The position numbers were made by a program, and so were the translations under genes. From the NCBI RefSeq assembly GCF_007997385.1, contig NZ_VOSC01000023.1:1-37381 (forward strand): a stretch of 37,381 bases of DNA, given 5' to 3'. The notes beneath the pieces were generated by a model. It was not told where the DNA came from. It saw nothing but the letters and a program-made list of their open reading frames with translations, and did not search any database. This DNA is from Seonamhaeicola algicola. Its GTDB lineage: Bacteria; Bacteroidota; Bacteroidia; Flavobacteriales; Flavobacteriaceae. This document shows, in pieces, positions 8,001-11,926 of this stretch. Numbering within the stretch: position 1 is the stretch's first letter; each line of letters begins with the position of its first letter.

Positions 8001-8521
8001 TGGCTATTCAGTTAATAATTAATAAAGAATTAGGTTTGGCTAAAAACGAAAACCCAACACAAGGTGCGTTTATAATAGAAGAATTAACAGATTTAGTTGA
8101 AGAAGCTGTATTACAGGAGTTTGATAGAATTACTGAGCGTGGTGGTGTTTTAGGCGCCATGGAAACCATGTACCAACGCAGTAAAATTCAAGAAGAAAGC
8201 TTGTATTATGAAACCTTAAAACATAACGGCAAGTTTCCTATAATAGGCGTAAATACATTTTTAAGTAGTAAAGGATCTCCAACCGTGTTGCCTGCCGAAG
8301 TTATTAGAGCAACTGAAGACGAAAAACAATTTCAAATTAAAACATTAGAAAACCTTCATAAATCACATGATACTGATGCGTTGCTTAAAAAGCTTCAAAA
8401 TGCAGCAATAAATAACCAAAACATTTTTAATGAACTTATGGATGTATGTAAAGTTTGCTCATTAGGTCAAATAACAACTGCCTTATTTGAAGTAGGCGGG
8501 CAGTACAGGCGTAATATGTAA
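5057..8521 (+). CDS. icmF: IcmF-type fused acyl-CoA mutase (B12 domain, G-protein chaperone, mutase)
   Basis: This 1154-residue protein has the IcmF domain order. The N-terminal B12-binding domain carries the DxH motif (D23, H25). A MeaB-like GTPase follows, with P-loop GTGGAGKS at 201-208 and NKFD further on. Next comes a linker of about 415-535, then a TIM-barrel mutase from about 560 ([32 protein letters not shown]). Such proteins interconvert branched and linear acyl-CoAs (isobutyryl/n-butyryl-CoA and relatives) with adenosylcobalamin; the G-domain protects and reloads the cofactor. By remembered alignment with methylmalonyl-CoA mutase (Tyr89/Arg207) and isobutyryl-CoA mutase (Phe/Gln), the specificity pair here is Tyr606/Gln805. 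That makes the exact substrate uncertain. It is monocistronic, followed by a new promoter. Confidence 0.9.
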
Positions 8522-8637
8522 GCAGAACACCTTTTTTTGTTTTCAAAAAGAATATGTAAATCGTTTATTCCGAGAATGTTTCGAGATAAAATTGATATAA
8601 AATTTTCGCCTAAATAGGAAAAACAAAACATTATAAC

Positions 8638-8664
8638 GCAACCAATACAAGGTTTTAACGTCTT
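8638..8664 (+). promoter_or_regulatory. Candidate ECF-type promoter (GCAAC-N16-CGTCTT)
   Basis: GCAAC at 8638-8642 and CGTCTT at 8659-8664 are separated by exactly 16 bases and lie 15 nt before the lipoprotein ATG. An AAC-type -35 and a CGTC-type -10 are the usual features of ECF sigma promoters, unlike the housekeeping TAnnTTTG seen elsewhere here. The same spacing recurs at 9192-9218. That SigZ drives it is inference. Confidence 0.45.
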
Positions 8665-8678
8665 TAAAACAAAAAGCT

Positions 8679-9164
8679 ATGATAAAAAAAATAGGCGTTT
8701 TAGTTGTTTGTTTTGTAATGTTTGCTTGTGGAGATGATGGTGTTTCAGGTGAAAAATATGAATATCATTTTTTTTCTGAACGTGAACTAACTGTTAATAC
8801 TGTTCAGGAATCTTACATGAAATACGGTGTTGTTTCTCAAGGCAATAATTTAGTATTTAAATACCATTACAAAGCTAAAGATGATGAGCAAATTGCTGAT
8901 GATGAATATTCAGAATTTATATATTTTGAAGTAGATGCTAACTTAAATAGTTTTGAGTTAACAAACGAGGCTTTAACTGGCGCTAAAGTTATTTTAACAA
9001 AATCTTGCTTTTGTTTTTTTGGTGATACTCCAGAAAAAAATGTTGAGCCAACTGGTATAATAACAGGTGAAAAAATATCTGATTCTAAATGGAAAATAAC
9101 ACTAAACGTAACGTTTTATGGTGATGAAACTAGGCAATTTGATAAAGTGTTTGTGTTACAATAA
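8679..9164 (+). CDS. Hypothetical lipoprotein (161 aa)
   Basis: A lipoprotein signal (MIKKIGVLVVCFVMFAC, Cys17) is followed by a soluble domain rich in beta-strand-like segments (SEFIYFEVDANLNSFELTNE, SDSKWKITLNVTFYGDETRQ). A CFCFF cluster lies near residue 110. I do not recognise the family. It may respond to misfolding or thiol stress, because a candidate ECF promoter precedes it and the next genes are a Cys-rich peptide and a SigZ-type sigma factor; this is inference from context only. The 157-nt gap before it otherwise holds nothing I can name. Confidence 0.7.
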   Translation: MIKKIGVLVVCFVMFACGDDGVSGEKYEYHFFSERELTVNTVQESYMKYGVVSQGNNLVFKYHYKAKDDEQIADDEYSEFIYFEVDANLNSFELTNEALTGAKVILTKSCFCFFGDTPEKNVEPTGIITGEKISDSKWKITLNVTFYGDETRQFDKVFVLQ

Positions 9165-9191
9165 ATTCATTTAAAAAAATATAAATTTTTT

Positions 9192-9218
9192 GCATCTTTT
9201 TTTAAACATGTACGTCTA
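9192..9218 (+). promoter_or_regulatory. Candidate ECF-type promoter (GCATC-N16-CGTCTA)
   Basis: GCATC at 9192-9196 and CGTCTA at 9213-9218 have the same 16-base spacing as the site at 8638-8664, differing by one base in the -35-like part. It lies 26 nt upstream of the Cys-rich peptide gene. It is a plausible target of the SigZ factor encoded just downstream, which would make the locus self-activating. No such site lies between the peptide gene and sigZ. Confidence 0.4.
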
Positions 9219-9244
9219 TTATATGAACTTTAAAAATAGATATC

Positions 9245-9343
9245 ATGAAAAATAACTGTACATGCAACTGCACTGGTTGCAAAAGTGGAAACTGTAAAAA
9301 TTGTACATGTACCAACTGTACGTGCTCAAATTGTAACTGTTAA
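9245..9343 (+). CDS. Metallothionein-like cysteine-rich peptide (32 aa, 11 Cys)
   Basis: An ATG at 9245 opens 32 codons ending in TAA. The peptide starts MKNNCTCNCTGCKSG and continues as CxxC and CxC units to a C-terminal Cys. Cys are at 5, 7, 9, 12, 17, 20, 22, 25, 27, 30 and 32, with no aromatic, His or acidic residues. Such spacing is that of metal-thiolate proteins, so binding of Zn, Cu or Cd or a thiol-buffering role is the natural reading. It does not match the bacterial BmtA/SmtA family as I remember it, which is longer and contains His. The DNA shows internal duplication (AACTGTAC-RTGC units). It is followed 79 nt later by a SigZ-type sigma gene and preceded by a candidate ECF promoter. 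A short ORF like this is easily missed by gene callers. Confidence 0.75.
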   Translation: MKNNCTCNCTGCKSGNCKNCTCTNCTCSNCNC

Positions 9344-9367
9344 TCATTATTAAAATATAAATGAATT

Positions 9368-9410
9368 GCGCTATTTTTAGTAAATTTATACTAGAATTAG
9401 CGCTATTTTT
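9368..9410. repeat. Direct repeat GCGCTATTTTT, 32 bp apart
   Basis: Two exact 11-base copies lie at 9368-9378 and 9400-9410, about three helical turns apart, between the Cys-rich gene and sigZ. Because GCGC is self-complementary, GCGCTA (9368-9373) can also pair with TAGCGC (9398-9403) as a hairpin followed by T's, a weak terminator-like shape. It could be a paired operator or partial terminator for sigZ expression. Confidence 0.4.
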
Positions 9411-9422
9411 TATTGATGATTT

Positions 9423-9968
9423 ATGAAGACTAAAGATGTTTGGAATACTTATGCTGATGCTATTAAATACTTTATTGTAAGTAAAGTAAATGATGCTGTA
9501 GTTGCTGATGATTTATTGCAGGAAACATTTATTAAAGTACACACAAAACTTAATACTTTAAAAGATGAAGACAAGCTAAAATCTTGGATTTTTTCAATAG
9601 CCCGATATACTGTTTTAGATTATTTTAGAAGCAAAAAAATAGTTTATGAAACAACCGATGATGATTTTGTTTTTGAAGACCAGAAATTAGAACATACCAA
9701 AGCCGATTGTTTGCGCGGTATTATTAAAAGCTTACCAAAAAAATACCGAGATCCGTTGTTTTTAAGTGATATACAGGGTTTAAAACAAGCGCAAGTTTCA
9801 AAGCAATTGCAATTACCTTTGCCCACAGTAAAATCTCAAATACAGCGTGCTAGAAAATTAATAGCTCAAGGTTTTATGGACTGTTGTGATTTTAAAGTAA
9901 ATGAAAACGGTTATTTAGTGGGTGAGTTAAAAGAAAAAGCCGATTGTAAAGTATGTAATACACACTAA
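9423..9968 (+). CDS. sigZ: SigZ-family ECF RNA polymerase sigma factor
   Basis: This 181-residue protein has sigma region 2 (about 10-75: DDLLQETFIKVHTKL, LKSWIFSIARYTVLDYFR) and region 4 (about 105-150: LPKKYRDPLFLSDIQGLKQAQVSKQL, LPTVKSQIQRARKLI). The tail carries C154, C155, C175 and C178 in the patterns MDCCDF and DCKVC. That Cys-bearing tail is the hallmark I associate with SigZ; it could bind a metal or sense thiol state. No anti-sigma gene is beside it, so direct sensing is plausible (inference). Its stop shares the four bases CTAA with the stop of the convergent gene. Position next to a metallothionein-like gene suggests a metal or thiol stress circuit. Confidence 0.85.
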   Translation: MKTKDVWNTYADAIKYFIVSKVNDAVVADDLLQETFIKVHTKLNTLKDEDKLKSWIFSIARYTVLDYFRSKKIVYETTDDDFVFEDQKLEHTKADCLRGIIKSLPKKYRDPLFLSDIQGLKQAQVSKQLQLPLPTVKSQIQRARKLIAQGFMDCCDFKVNENGYLVGELKEKADCKVCNTH

Positions 9969-10360
9969 AGTGTTAACATCCAATTACGTTGTAGTTTCTT
10001 AAATTTTCTTAATTCATACCTTAAAATGGGTAAGAAATCTTTACCATTACTGTTAGATTTTTCTAAGCGGTAAGAGTTCTTGTAAAGCAAATTTGTTAAA
10101 CGCCTTAACGAGGCTACGTGTTTATGCTTCCTTTCAGTATGGCGTTGTAATTCAGCATTTGCAATTTCAGGAGCTAAGTTTACAGATTGTTGAACAATGT
10201 CACCAGAAAAGTAAATGTTTGAATCTTCAAAACCATTTTCATTTAATGGTGCTAAATCATCATTTAAGTAGGTTGAAATACTTTGCGAAAGCGCTAAAAT
10301 TTCTAGAGCTTTTCTATAAATCGGTAATTCCGATAGGTTTGATGGGGTATTGTGTAACAT
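9965..10360 (-). CDS. Hypothetical helical protein (131 aa), possibly four-helix-bundle type
   Basis: I set the start at the ATG at 10360 (MLHNTPSNLSELPIYRKALEI) because AAGGAAG, a purine-rich ribosome site, lies just before it; a GTG at 10375 would add five residues. The protein is all-helical in appearance. It has an IYRKALEILALSQSI helix, a DIVQQSVNLAPEIANAE helix and a very basic C-terminal helix (RYELRKFKKLQRNW). The layout recalls the small four-helix-bundle proteins related to those encoded in 23S rRNA intervening sequences, but I am not sure. It is convergent with sigZ and divergent from the Lrp-type regulator. Confidence 0.6.
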   Translation of the reverse strand: MLHNTPSNLSELPIYRKALEILALSQSISTYLNDDLAPLNENGFEDSNIYFSGDIVQQSVNLAPEIANAELQRHTERKHKHVASLRRLTNLLYKNSYRLEKSNSNGKDFLPILRYELRKFKKLQRNWMLTL

Positions 10361-10430
10361 GGCTTCCTTTTTCACTACAATTTAATCAAAATTACTCACA
10401 AGTAATTATTTTCAACTTTAATATTTAAAG

Positions 10431-10446
10431 TAAATTTGTATTTTTG
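10431..10446 (+). promoter_or_regulatory. Two adjacent -7 elements (TAAATTTG, TATTTTTG)
   Basis: Perfect matches to the Bacteroidota -7 consensus TAnnTTTG lie back to back at 10431-10438 and 10439-10446, 38 nt before the Lrp/AsnC start. No clear -33 TTG is visible. Two start points one helical turn apart are possible. Confidence 0.5.
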
Positions 10447-10483
10447 CTTTAAAATGTATGTTTTTATAGTTTAAAATCTTTAA

Positions 10484-10924
10484 ATGCAAATAGACGAGCT
10501 TAATAAGAAGATTTTGAGGTGTTTACAGCAAAACGCTAGACTCTCTAATGCCGAAATTGGGCGTCAAGTAGGCATAAGTTCGCCTGCTGTTTCAGAGCGC
10601 ATAAAAAAAATGGAAGATTTGGGAATTATTGAAGGTTATAAAGCTTTGGTGTCTCCATTTGAAATTGGGTATCAGCTTAAAGCTATTATTACTTTGCGCG
10701 CTTTCATGGGAAAATTAAAACCGTTTTTAGAGAAGGTGAAAACCTTTGATGAAGTGGTTAATTGTTACCGGATAACAGGCGATGAAAATATTGTAATGGA
10801 AGTGGTTTTAAAAAATCAAAAACACTTAGAAACATTTATAGATCAGCTTATAATTTACGGTGAAAGTAAAACGCAAATAGTACTTTCTAGAGTTGTAAAA
10901 CAAAGTGAAATAAAACCTATTTAA
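10484..10924 (+). CDS. Lrp/AsnC-family transcriptional regulator
   Basis: The 146-residue protein has the full Lrp/AsnC layout. An N-terminal winged helix-turn-helix (about 5-60) has LNKKILRCLQQNARLSNAEIG and the recognition part ISSPAVSERIKKMEDLGII. An AsnC/RAM ligand-binding domain follows (about 65-140, with CYRITGDENIVMEVV). These proteins form octamers that sense amino acids or other small molecules. The target is unknown. It is convergent with the YpdA-like gene, only 6 nt separating the stops. Two -7 elements precede it. Confidence 0.92.
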   Translation: MQIDELNKKILRCLQQNARLSNAEIGRQVGISSPAVSERIKKMEDLGIIEGYKALVSPFEIGYQLKAIITLRAFMGKLKPFLEKVKTFDEVVNCYRITGDENIVMEVVLKNQKHLETFIDQLIIYGESKTQIVLSRVVKQSEIKPI

Positions 10925-10930
10925 GGGTTG

Positions 10931-11926
10931 TTAATTGCTTAAATTTAATTTAGTTTCAATATGTTTAGCTATGCGTTTTGCATGTATTCTAGAGTTTTCA
11001 ATAAACCATTTATGCGTTTCTTTTCCGCCACAAATAACACCTGCCAAGTATAGGTTTTCAATATTAGATTCCATAGTGTCATTATTATAAATAGGAATTT
11101 GCTTTTCATCATCTGTCATTGTAATACCACTATTTTTTAACAAATTAAAATCTGGTAAATAACCTGTAAGCGCAATAACATAATCATTAAGTAAAGTAAC
11201 CAAACCTTTAGGCGTTTTTACGGTTACTGAGTTTGGTGTTATTTCTTTAATTTCAGAGTTAAAATATGCTTTAATACTGCCTTCTTCAATTCTATTTATA
11301 ATATCTGGCCTAACCCAATATTTAACGCGTTCGCCTATATTTTCGCCTCTAACAACCATGGTTACGCGGCCTCCTTTTCGCCATATTTCTAAAGCGGCAT
11401 CAACCGCAGAATTACTAGCTCCAACAACCACAACATCTTGTAAGGTGTAATTGTGTGCTTCTTTATAATAATGTGTTACTTTATTTAGGTTTTCACCAGC
11501 AACATTAAGTAATTTTGGTATATCATAAAATCCTGTACATATTATTACATGTTTAGCGGTGTATTGACGTTTGCTTGTTTTTACCTGAAATGTTTGTGCA
11601 GTTTTGTTTATGTTTATAACAGTTTCATATAAGTTTATATTTAAATTATTTGAAGTGGTTACACGCCTATAATACTCTAAAGCTTCATCTCTATTGGGTT
11701 TGGGGTTGTTGCTTATAAAAGGAATGTTGTCTATTTCTAACTTTTCAGATGTAGAGAAAAACGTCATGTTTTTGGGGTAATTAAAAAGTGAGTTAGCTAG
11801 AGTACCTTTTTCAATTACTACATAATTCCAGTTTCTTTTTTTACACTCTAATGCGCAGGCAATACCAATAGGGCCGCCACCTATAATTATAATATCTTTT
11901 TCTGTTAGTATAGTTTCTTTTGTCAT
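10931..11926 (-). CDS. ypdA: YpdA-family NADPH:bacillithiol disulfide reductase (FAD)
   Basis: At 331 residues it has two dinucleotide folds: IIIGGGPIGIACALE near the N-terminus for FAD and VVVVGASNSAVDAALEIW at about 165-185 for NAD(P)H. It also has the family blocks MTFFSTSEKLEIDNIPF and LAGVICGGKETHKWFIENSR. YpdA reduces bacillithiol disulfide in Firmicutes; many Bacteroidota appear to make bacillithiol too, which is background knowledge and not visible here. It is last in a minus-strand operon, 10 nt after the VOC gene, with an MFS exporter first. This suggests that the operon handles thiol-reactive or toxic compounds. Confidence 0.85.
   Translation of the reverse strand: MTKETILTEKDIIIIGGGPIGIACALECKKRNWNYVVIEKGTLANSLFNYPKNMTFFSTSEKLEIDNIPFISNNPKPNRDEALEYYRRVTTSNNLNINLYETVININKTAQTFQVKTSKRQYTAKHVIICTGFYDIPKLLNVAGENLNKVTHYYKEAHNYTLQDVVVVGASNSAVDAALEIWRKGGRVTMVVRGENIGERVKYWVRPDIINRIEEGSIKAYFNSEIKEITPNSVTVKTPKGLVTLLNDYVIALTGYLPDFNLLKNSGITMTDDEKQIPIYNNDTMESNIENLYLAGVICGGKETHKWFIENSRIHAKRIAKHIETKLNLSN

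Follow-up and report, generated by a model that had tools for sequence, protein, structure and literature searches.

The window, by which we mean the whole 37,381-nt stretch analysed here (Seonamhaeicola algicola contig NZ_VOSC01000023.1, assembly GCF_007997385.1), encodes a 32-residue Cys-rich peptide immediately upstream of a gene for a SigZ-type ECF sigma factor. Judged by its conservation and selection in relatives, the peptide is a real gene, and it most plausibly represents a new family of short, CxC-rich, metallothionein-like peptides with predicted metal binding. We consider it probable that the peptide and SigZ form an autogenous operon with a Cys-tailed, metal(loid)-sensing sigma factor, in which the peptide ends the signal. 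The locus contains the following features:

9191–9217, forward strand: candidate promoter of ECF type with its end 27 nt upstream of the ATG; TGCATC-N16-CGTCT, or TGCATCTTTTT-N12-GTCT in the wider form
9245–9343, forward strand: type I metallothionein-like peptide, 32 residues, 11 Cys, CxCxCx2Cx4Cx2CxCx2CxCx2CxC
9368–9411, forward strand: stem-loop (9368–9403) followed by TATTTTTT, terminator- or attenuator-like, between peptide and sigZ
9423–9968, forward strand: SigZ-type ECF sigma factor, 181 aa, with region 2 and region 4 (Pfam PF04542, PF08281)
9708–9710, forward strand: codon for Cys96, which follows most of region 2 and precedes region 4, Cys in 74/74 type I SigZ
9882–9956, forward strand: Cys-rich C-terminal tail of SigZ, C154 C155 ... 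C175 xx C178, invariant where the residue is present

Translation of 9245–9343 (+) gives MKNNCTCNCTGCKSGNCKNCTCTNCTCSNCNC followed by a stop, with Cys at positions 5, 7, 9, 12, 17, 20, 22, 25, 27, 30 and 32 (n = 11) and no F, W, Y or H, which bears out the claim of a preliminary description that the frame encodes a 32-residue, 11-Cys peptide without aromatics or His. That description had also placed the peptide directly before a SigZ-type gene with a Cys-rich tail, as we find it (sigZ at 9423–9968 (+), with CC...CxxC at residues 154–178), and had read the peptide as metallothionein-like but not BmtA/SmtA-like, a reading supported by the lack of matches in Pfam and NCBIfam and by the retained Cys pattern. 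The peptide is small and carries CxC and CxxC units with no aromatics, the general sequence hallmarks of metallothioneins, and the precise spacing of its Cys in such units is typical of metal-thiolate peptides. As one of nine Cys-rich peptides searched, it matched 0 families at E ≤ 10 in Pfam and NCBIfam; the positive control, run in Pfam only, was a human metallothionein, which matched PF00131. A search of the PDB with a type I consensus-like peptide as query returned one insignificant match (E 3.2), and none of the open-licence papers found by literature searches was, by title and abstract, about the type I peptide or a SigZ–metallothionein pair. Metallothioneins and Cys-tailed ECF sigma factors are known kinds of protein; the peptide family and its pairing with SigZ appear new.

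A first search of 59 genomes found true homologues in the S. algicola genome and three others, each of the four immediately followed by a SigZ-type gene in the same orientation. Two further matches of this search were dropped, L005, which lies in a 299-aa frame, and L006, which lies within or antisense to a repeat-protein gene. In a sample of 397 Flavobacteriaceae genomes, homologues occur in 67 (E ≤ 0.1), and the full 11-Cys pattern is kept in 61 of these 67, an unselected figure whose exceptions include two decayed-looking loci: G217, where two stops interrupt SigZ and the peptide has a shortened frame without an ATG, and G117, where three Cys are lost from the peptide and SigZ was not found. 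A wider DNA-pattern scan, filtered to keep matches with at most 12 Cys and no stop within 28 codons, found the peptide in at least 35 of the 116 loci listed, all of them in records titled Bacteroidota or a subgroup, including one Saprospiraceae and one Cytophagales; among those listed, the discarded matches were runs of Cys codons. With G004, which lies outside the 397-genome sample, the full-pattern loci number 62, and 17 close pairs, chosen by hand, gave 0.473 synonymous and 0.067 nonsynonymous changes per site, a ratio of 0.14. At non-Cys codons the nonsynonymous/synonymous ratio in these pairs is 0.24, a value that is independent of the selection for the Cys pattern. As judged from these substitutions, the peptide is under purifying selection, non-Cys codons included, and a chance ORF is ruled out by this selection in close pairs and by the conservation in 67/397 genomes.

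We collected 95 full-pattern peptides, in which Cys conservation holds by construction. SigZ lies directly downstream of 74 of them; six with a cut locus or a SigZ further off are counted apart (L093, L109, L116, L166, L171, L198), 15 have no SigZ downstream within the stretch examined, and L095 and L163 were left out of the counts as duplicates of G106 and G108. When four peptide-linked SigZ were aligned and used as the query (E ≤ 1e-30), 104 of the 397 genomes gave matches, with a score gap between 172 and 156 bits, and 51 of 51 genomes with a SigZ of at least 172 bits carry the peptide, with the cut chosen after the gap was seen and the model built from those four peptide-linked sequences. 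Absence of the ORF from relatives that keep sigZ, or loss of the Cys codons in homologues, had been set beforehand as refuting the metallothionein-like reading; the ORF is present in every one of these high-scoring SigZ genomes, and the Cys codons are conserved in the proportion given above. Any P value for the co-occurrence of peptide and SigZ is descriptive only, because related genomes are not independent. Sixteen of the 67 peptide genomes, some of them incomplete, have no SigZ of at least 172 bits, and the pairing is therefore not obligatory. SigZ-less copies lie in other gene neighbourhoods or in a window-like place without sigZ; in the latter (L069 and L078, assigned by eye) the peptide stands with a convergent 134–141-aa gene and an Lrp/AsnC-like gene as in the window, so that sigZ was lost or not gained there. 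No recurring metal-transport gene was seen beside the type I operon.

This distribution bears on whether the peptide might act on SigZ itself, as a metal relay or an anti-sigma partner of the Cys tail, and not mainly in storage or detoxification. The presence of the peptide in all 51 SigZ genomes and the decayed look of both genes in G217 are in keeping with such a role, but the 16 type I genomes above, together with two genomes of a type II peptide described below (L267 and L268), keep the peptide without a recognised SigZ, and there the peptide cannot regulate SigZ. We consider a regulatory partnership unlikely and favour a metal-buffering peptide whose expression would depend on SigZ.

The candidate promoter fits this dependence. 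Its wider form, TGCATCTTTTT-N12-GTCT, which we take to resemble the −35 and −10 elements of an ECF promoter, stands in front of the SigZ-linked peptides exactly in 59/74, with at most one mismatch in 72/74 and with at most two in 74/74, and all six peptides counted apart have it as well. It is absent from 15/15 peptides without SigZ downstream, even at three mismatches, so the promoter goes with the sigma and not with the peptide; upstream of several of these SigZ-less copies we found sequences such as TACCTTTA or TATCTTTA, which look similar to the −7 box usual in Bacteroidota. Dinucleotide shuffling, repeated five times, produced 0 matches with two or fewer mismatches and 0.4 on average with three, and the distance from promoter end to ATG is 25–34 nt in 71 of the 74 loci, the other three having 36, 37 and 66 nt. 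This pattern of occurrence suggests that SigZ drives the peptide promoter.

Within the S. algicola genome, TGCATC-N16-CGTCT has one perfect match, the peptide promoter, and with one mismatch allowed there are 18 matches vs 16 for the reversed pattern. A regulon scan of 52 genomes at one mismatch gave 16 sites beyond the operon vs 15 for the reversed pattern, which is not above the control. Exact sites number 53 in 49 of the 397 genomes, against 4 for the reversed-pattern control; 40 are the peptide promoter and 13 lie elsewhere, nine inside frames and four between genes (one upstream of a CDF gene, one upstream of a DUF3703 gene, one in a SigZ-like/ArsM gap, and one between a recA-like and another gene), and since these 13 are too few we claim no regulon. 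At L209 (G112) the exact type I promoter lies 24 nt before the CDF cation-efflux gene, and at L043 (G338) 19 nt before the DUF3703 gene, which itself precedes the peptide–sigZ operon; both genes are possible further SigZ targets. We also observed, at L208/L235 (G154), a promoter-like TGCATCTTTTT-N12-GTCT in the gap that separates an arsenite methyltransferase gene from a gene for a SigZ-like sigma.

The best NCBIfam matches of the window sigma are the SigZ models, both below cut-off (NF007215, 178.1 against 212 bits; TIGR02959, 163.1 against 168.65 bits), which makes Bacillus subtilis SigZ the closest named sigma family; B. subtilis was positive in the control of our phylum SigZ search. Five columns are the only ones with Cys in at least 30% of the 74 type I SigZ, namely Cys96, C154, C155, C175 and C178, the tail residues being Cys in 73/73 (C154, C155 and C175, each) and 72/72 (C178), so that every type I sequence covering them has the tail pattern CC-x19-CxxC and one linker Cys. 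By analogy with the CorE sigma factors discussed below, the Cys tail and Cys96 may constitute a metal(loid) sensor. The AlphaFold model of SigZ (pTM 0.44) builds the tail as two short strands at pLDDT 65–74; the tail cannot be called a domain with confidence, and we gave the model no weight as evidence for a folded sensor. The open-licence papers found for SigZ with metal or arsenic were, by title and abstract, not about SigZ.

Between the two genes, the stretch 9344–9422 folds at −22.5 kcal/mol (z −5.6), and 0/200 shuffles were as low. We counted 71 peptide–sigZ intergenic stretches of at least 35 nt in relatives, and a strong stem-loop is present in 60 vs 2.8% of simple letter shuffles, with 57 of the 71 beating all 60 of their shuffles and 38 of the 60 strong stem-loops having at least four consecutive T at the foot. 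A simple terminator scan of 8500–10500 found no site, including at 9368–9411, which counts against reading the hairpin as a terminator. We think that the hairpin probably limits read-through into sigZ. Such a layout could also belong to a leader peptide, in which a Cys-codon-rich ORF and the hairpin sense cysteine or charged tRNA-Cys and attenuate sigZ transcription while the peptide itself is functionless, and the 11 Cys codons of 32 and the terminator-like hairpin with its T-run between ORF and sigZ would suit it. The Cys codons, however, run throughout the ORF with no cluster at its end, and the leader reading fails because purifying selection acts at non-Cys codons too (ratio 0.24), because 15 peptides have no SigZ downstream and lie in other neighbourhoods or where sigZ is missing, and because in some relatives (L246, L248, L252 and L254) the sigma gene is followed by a Cys-rich ORF with a different Cys pattern. 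A functionless leader is quite unlikely, and we retain the reading of a working metallothionein-like peptide with a probably attenuating hairpin behind it.

In the circuit that we propose, the peptide gene would be the first of a two-gene operon with sigZ. Binding of metal(loid) at the Cys tail and Cys96 would alter the shape of SigZ and turn it on, as in CorE, and SigZ would then recognise the TGCATCTTTTT-N12-GTCT site upstream of the peptide and transcribe its own operon. The hairpin would curb read-through, giving much peptide and little sigma, and the peptide would wrap soft metal ions (Cu(I), Zn, Cd or As(III)) in Cys thiolates, thereby removing the metal and ending the signal.

A second peptide type occupies the same place beside the sister clade of type I SigZ. 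The next group of sigmas in the family, scoring 139–156 bits, has a different peptide upstream in 13 of 14 loci inspected, the type II peptide (MNxCKCTNCxCxKCNC...CxCC, mostly 37 residues, 14 Cys). Searched by itself, it occurs in 23 of the 397 genomes, with no overlap with the type I genomes (chance of no overlap 0.012, a descriptive value, as related genomes are not independent). A SigZ-like sigma lies 19–56 nt downstream of the peptide in 21 of the 23; the other two, L267 and L268, have no sigma within ~500 nt. The type II promoter, TG(T/C)ATCnTTTT-N12-GTC(T/A), is present with at most one mismatch in 13/13 family loci examined, and L223, whose sigma falls in the type II clade, lacks both peptide and promoter. 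In a phylogeny of 119 sigmas, each of the two types requires one label change (32 ungrouped rows uncounted). Type II sigmas have the equivalents of Cys96, C154, C155 and C175 in 14/14 and that of C178 in 13/14, and a Cys96 equivalent is found in 16 of 32 other SigZ-like sigmas.

Across the phylum, a SigZ match (E ≤ 1e-30) was found in 42 of 296 genomes. Among 30 of these loci examined, four are type I, and eight of the 26 others have a Cys-rich peptide of 26–48 residues beside the sigma, one of them type II. In other families, at L246, L248, L252 and L254, Cys-rich peptides of other patterns lie just downstream of SigZ-like genes, with 26–27 residues and 8 Cys or 43 residues and 13 Cys. Promoter matches occur in 7/32 SigZ-like loci outside types I and II, a count made without a shuffled control. 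Several SigZ-like loci have arsenic genes above curated cut-offs nearby, encoding ArsM (L232, L235, L239), ArsI/CadI (L241, L250) and ACR3 (L250); a VOC protein at L242 and a permease at L259 had no NCBIfam match at E ≤ 1e-40, and that these and similar neighbours are akin to arsenic genes is only our reading. That the peptide is instead a redox or sulfur store, its thiols a disulfide or reductant buffer and not metal ligands, would suit its high thiol content and the putative bacillithiol-disulfide reductase gene (YpdA) in the window, of a kind that may be general in these bacteria, but is very unlikely in view of the exact CxC/CxxC spacing and the arsenic-handling neighbours of some related SigZ genes.

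Extending the metal-buffering reading, we speculate, with slightly more doubt than confidence, that SigZ-type sigmas of Bacteroidota form a class that senses metal(loid)s through a single protein, each member partnered by a Cys-rich peptide of its own or by arsenic genes. If so, the SigZ-paired peptides, which comprise two or more well-defined types as well as several others, would have been repeatedly reinvented or have strongly diverged, and the simplest form of the system, one sigma, one promoter and one peptide, would buffer metal in a closed loop, with the peptide stripping metal from the sigma and so ending the signal.

The closest known systems share parts of this arrangement. Eukaryotic metallothioneins (PF00131) are like the window peptide small, CxC-rich and without aromatics or His, as are short fungal Cu-thioneins such as that of Neurospora, but the window peptide has no sequence match to PF00131 although the human protein does, and the likeness is compositional only. 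Bacterial SmtA/BmtA and the Pseudomonas metallothioneins are also small, Cys-rich and proposed to buffer metal, whereas the window peptide has no His and no aromatics, is dominated by CxC units and does not match these families; it is, moreover, tied to an ECF sigma, unlike SmtA/BmtA, and smtA is under the SmtB repressor. One paper describes clusters of the Zn3Cys9His and Cd4Cys9His kinds and notes that His is plentiful in Pseudomonas metallothioneins (PMC7387436). On the side of the sigma, CorE and CorE2 of Myxococcus xanthus, classified as ECF238 (formerly ECF44) (PMC8999054), are described in one section of the same source as combining a linker CXC with a C-terminal domain rich in Cys, neither of which is dispensable for activity, and as responding to copper or to Cd/Zn (PMC8999054, section 3.5.1). 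SigZ resembles CorE in design, with a Cys-rich C-terminal extension (C154, C155, C175, C178) and a linker Cys, but differs in that the linker CXC is absent and a single conserved linker Cys (Cys96) is found, in that the tail has four conserved Cys, and in that the partner gene encodes a metallothionein-like peptide.

Bacterial metallothioneins are known from few lineages, and peptides of 30–40 residues are readily overlooked by gene callers. The family described here extends throughout Flavobacteriaceae, with relatives elsewhere in Bacteroidota, and its pairing offers a proposed function for SigZ-type sigmas. Since the peptide, its likely regulator and the promoter lie in one operon, metal specificity, sensing and feedback are directly testable, and the pair of promoter and sensor could work as a metal reporter. 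Elsewhere in the window, 10931–11926 (−) encodes a YpdA-family putative bacillithiol disulfide reductase (TIGR04018, 490 bits), which points to the use of bacillithiol by the cell. A 161-aa lipoprotein-like protein with no Pfam match above cut-off is encoded at 8679–9164 (+), in the interval that separates the operon from a large gene upstream of it, and a similar ORF is also present in the sister genome G004.
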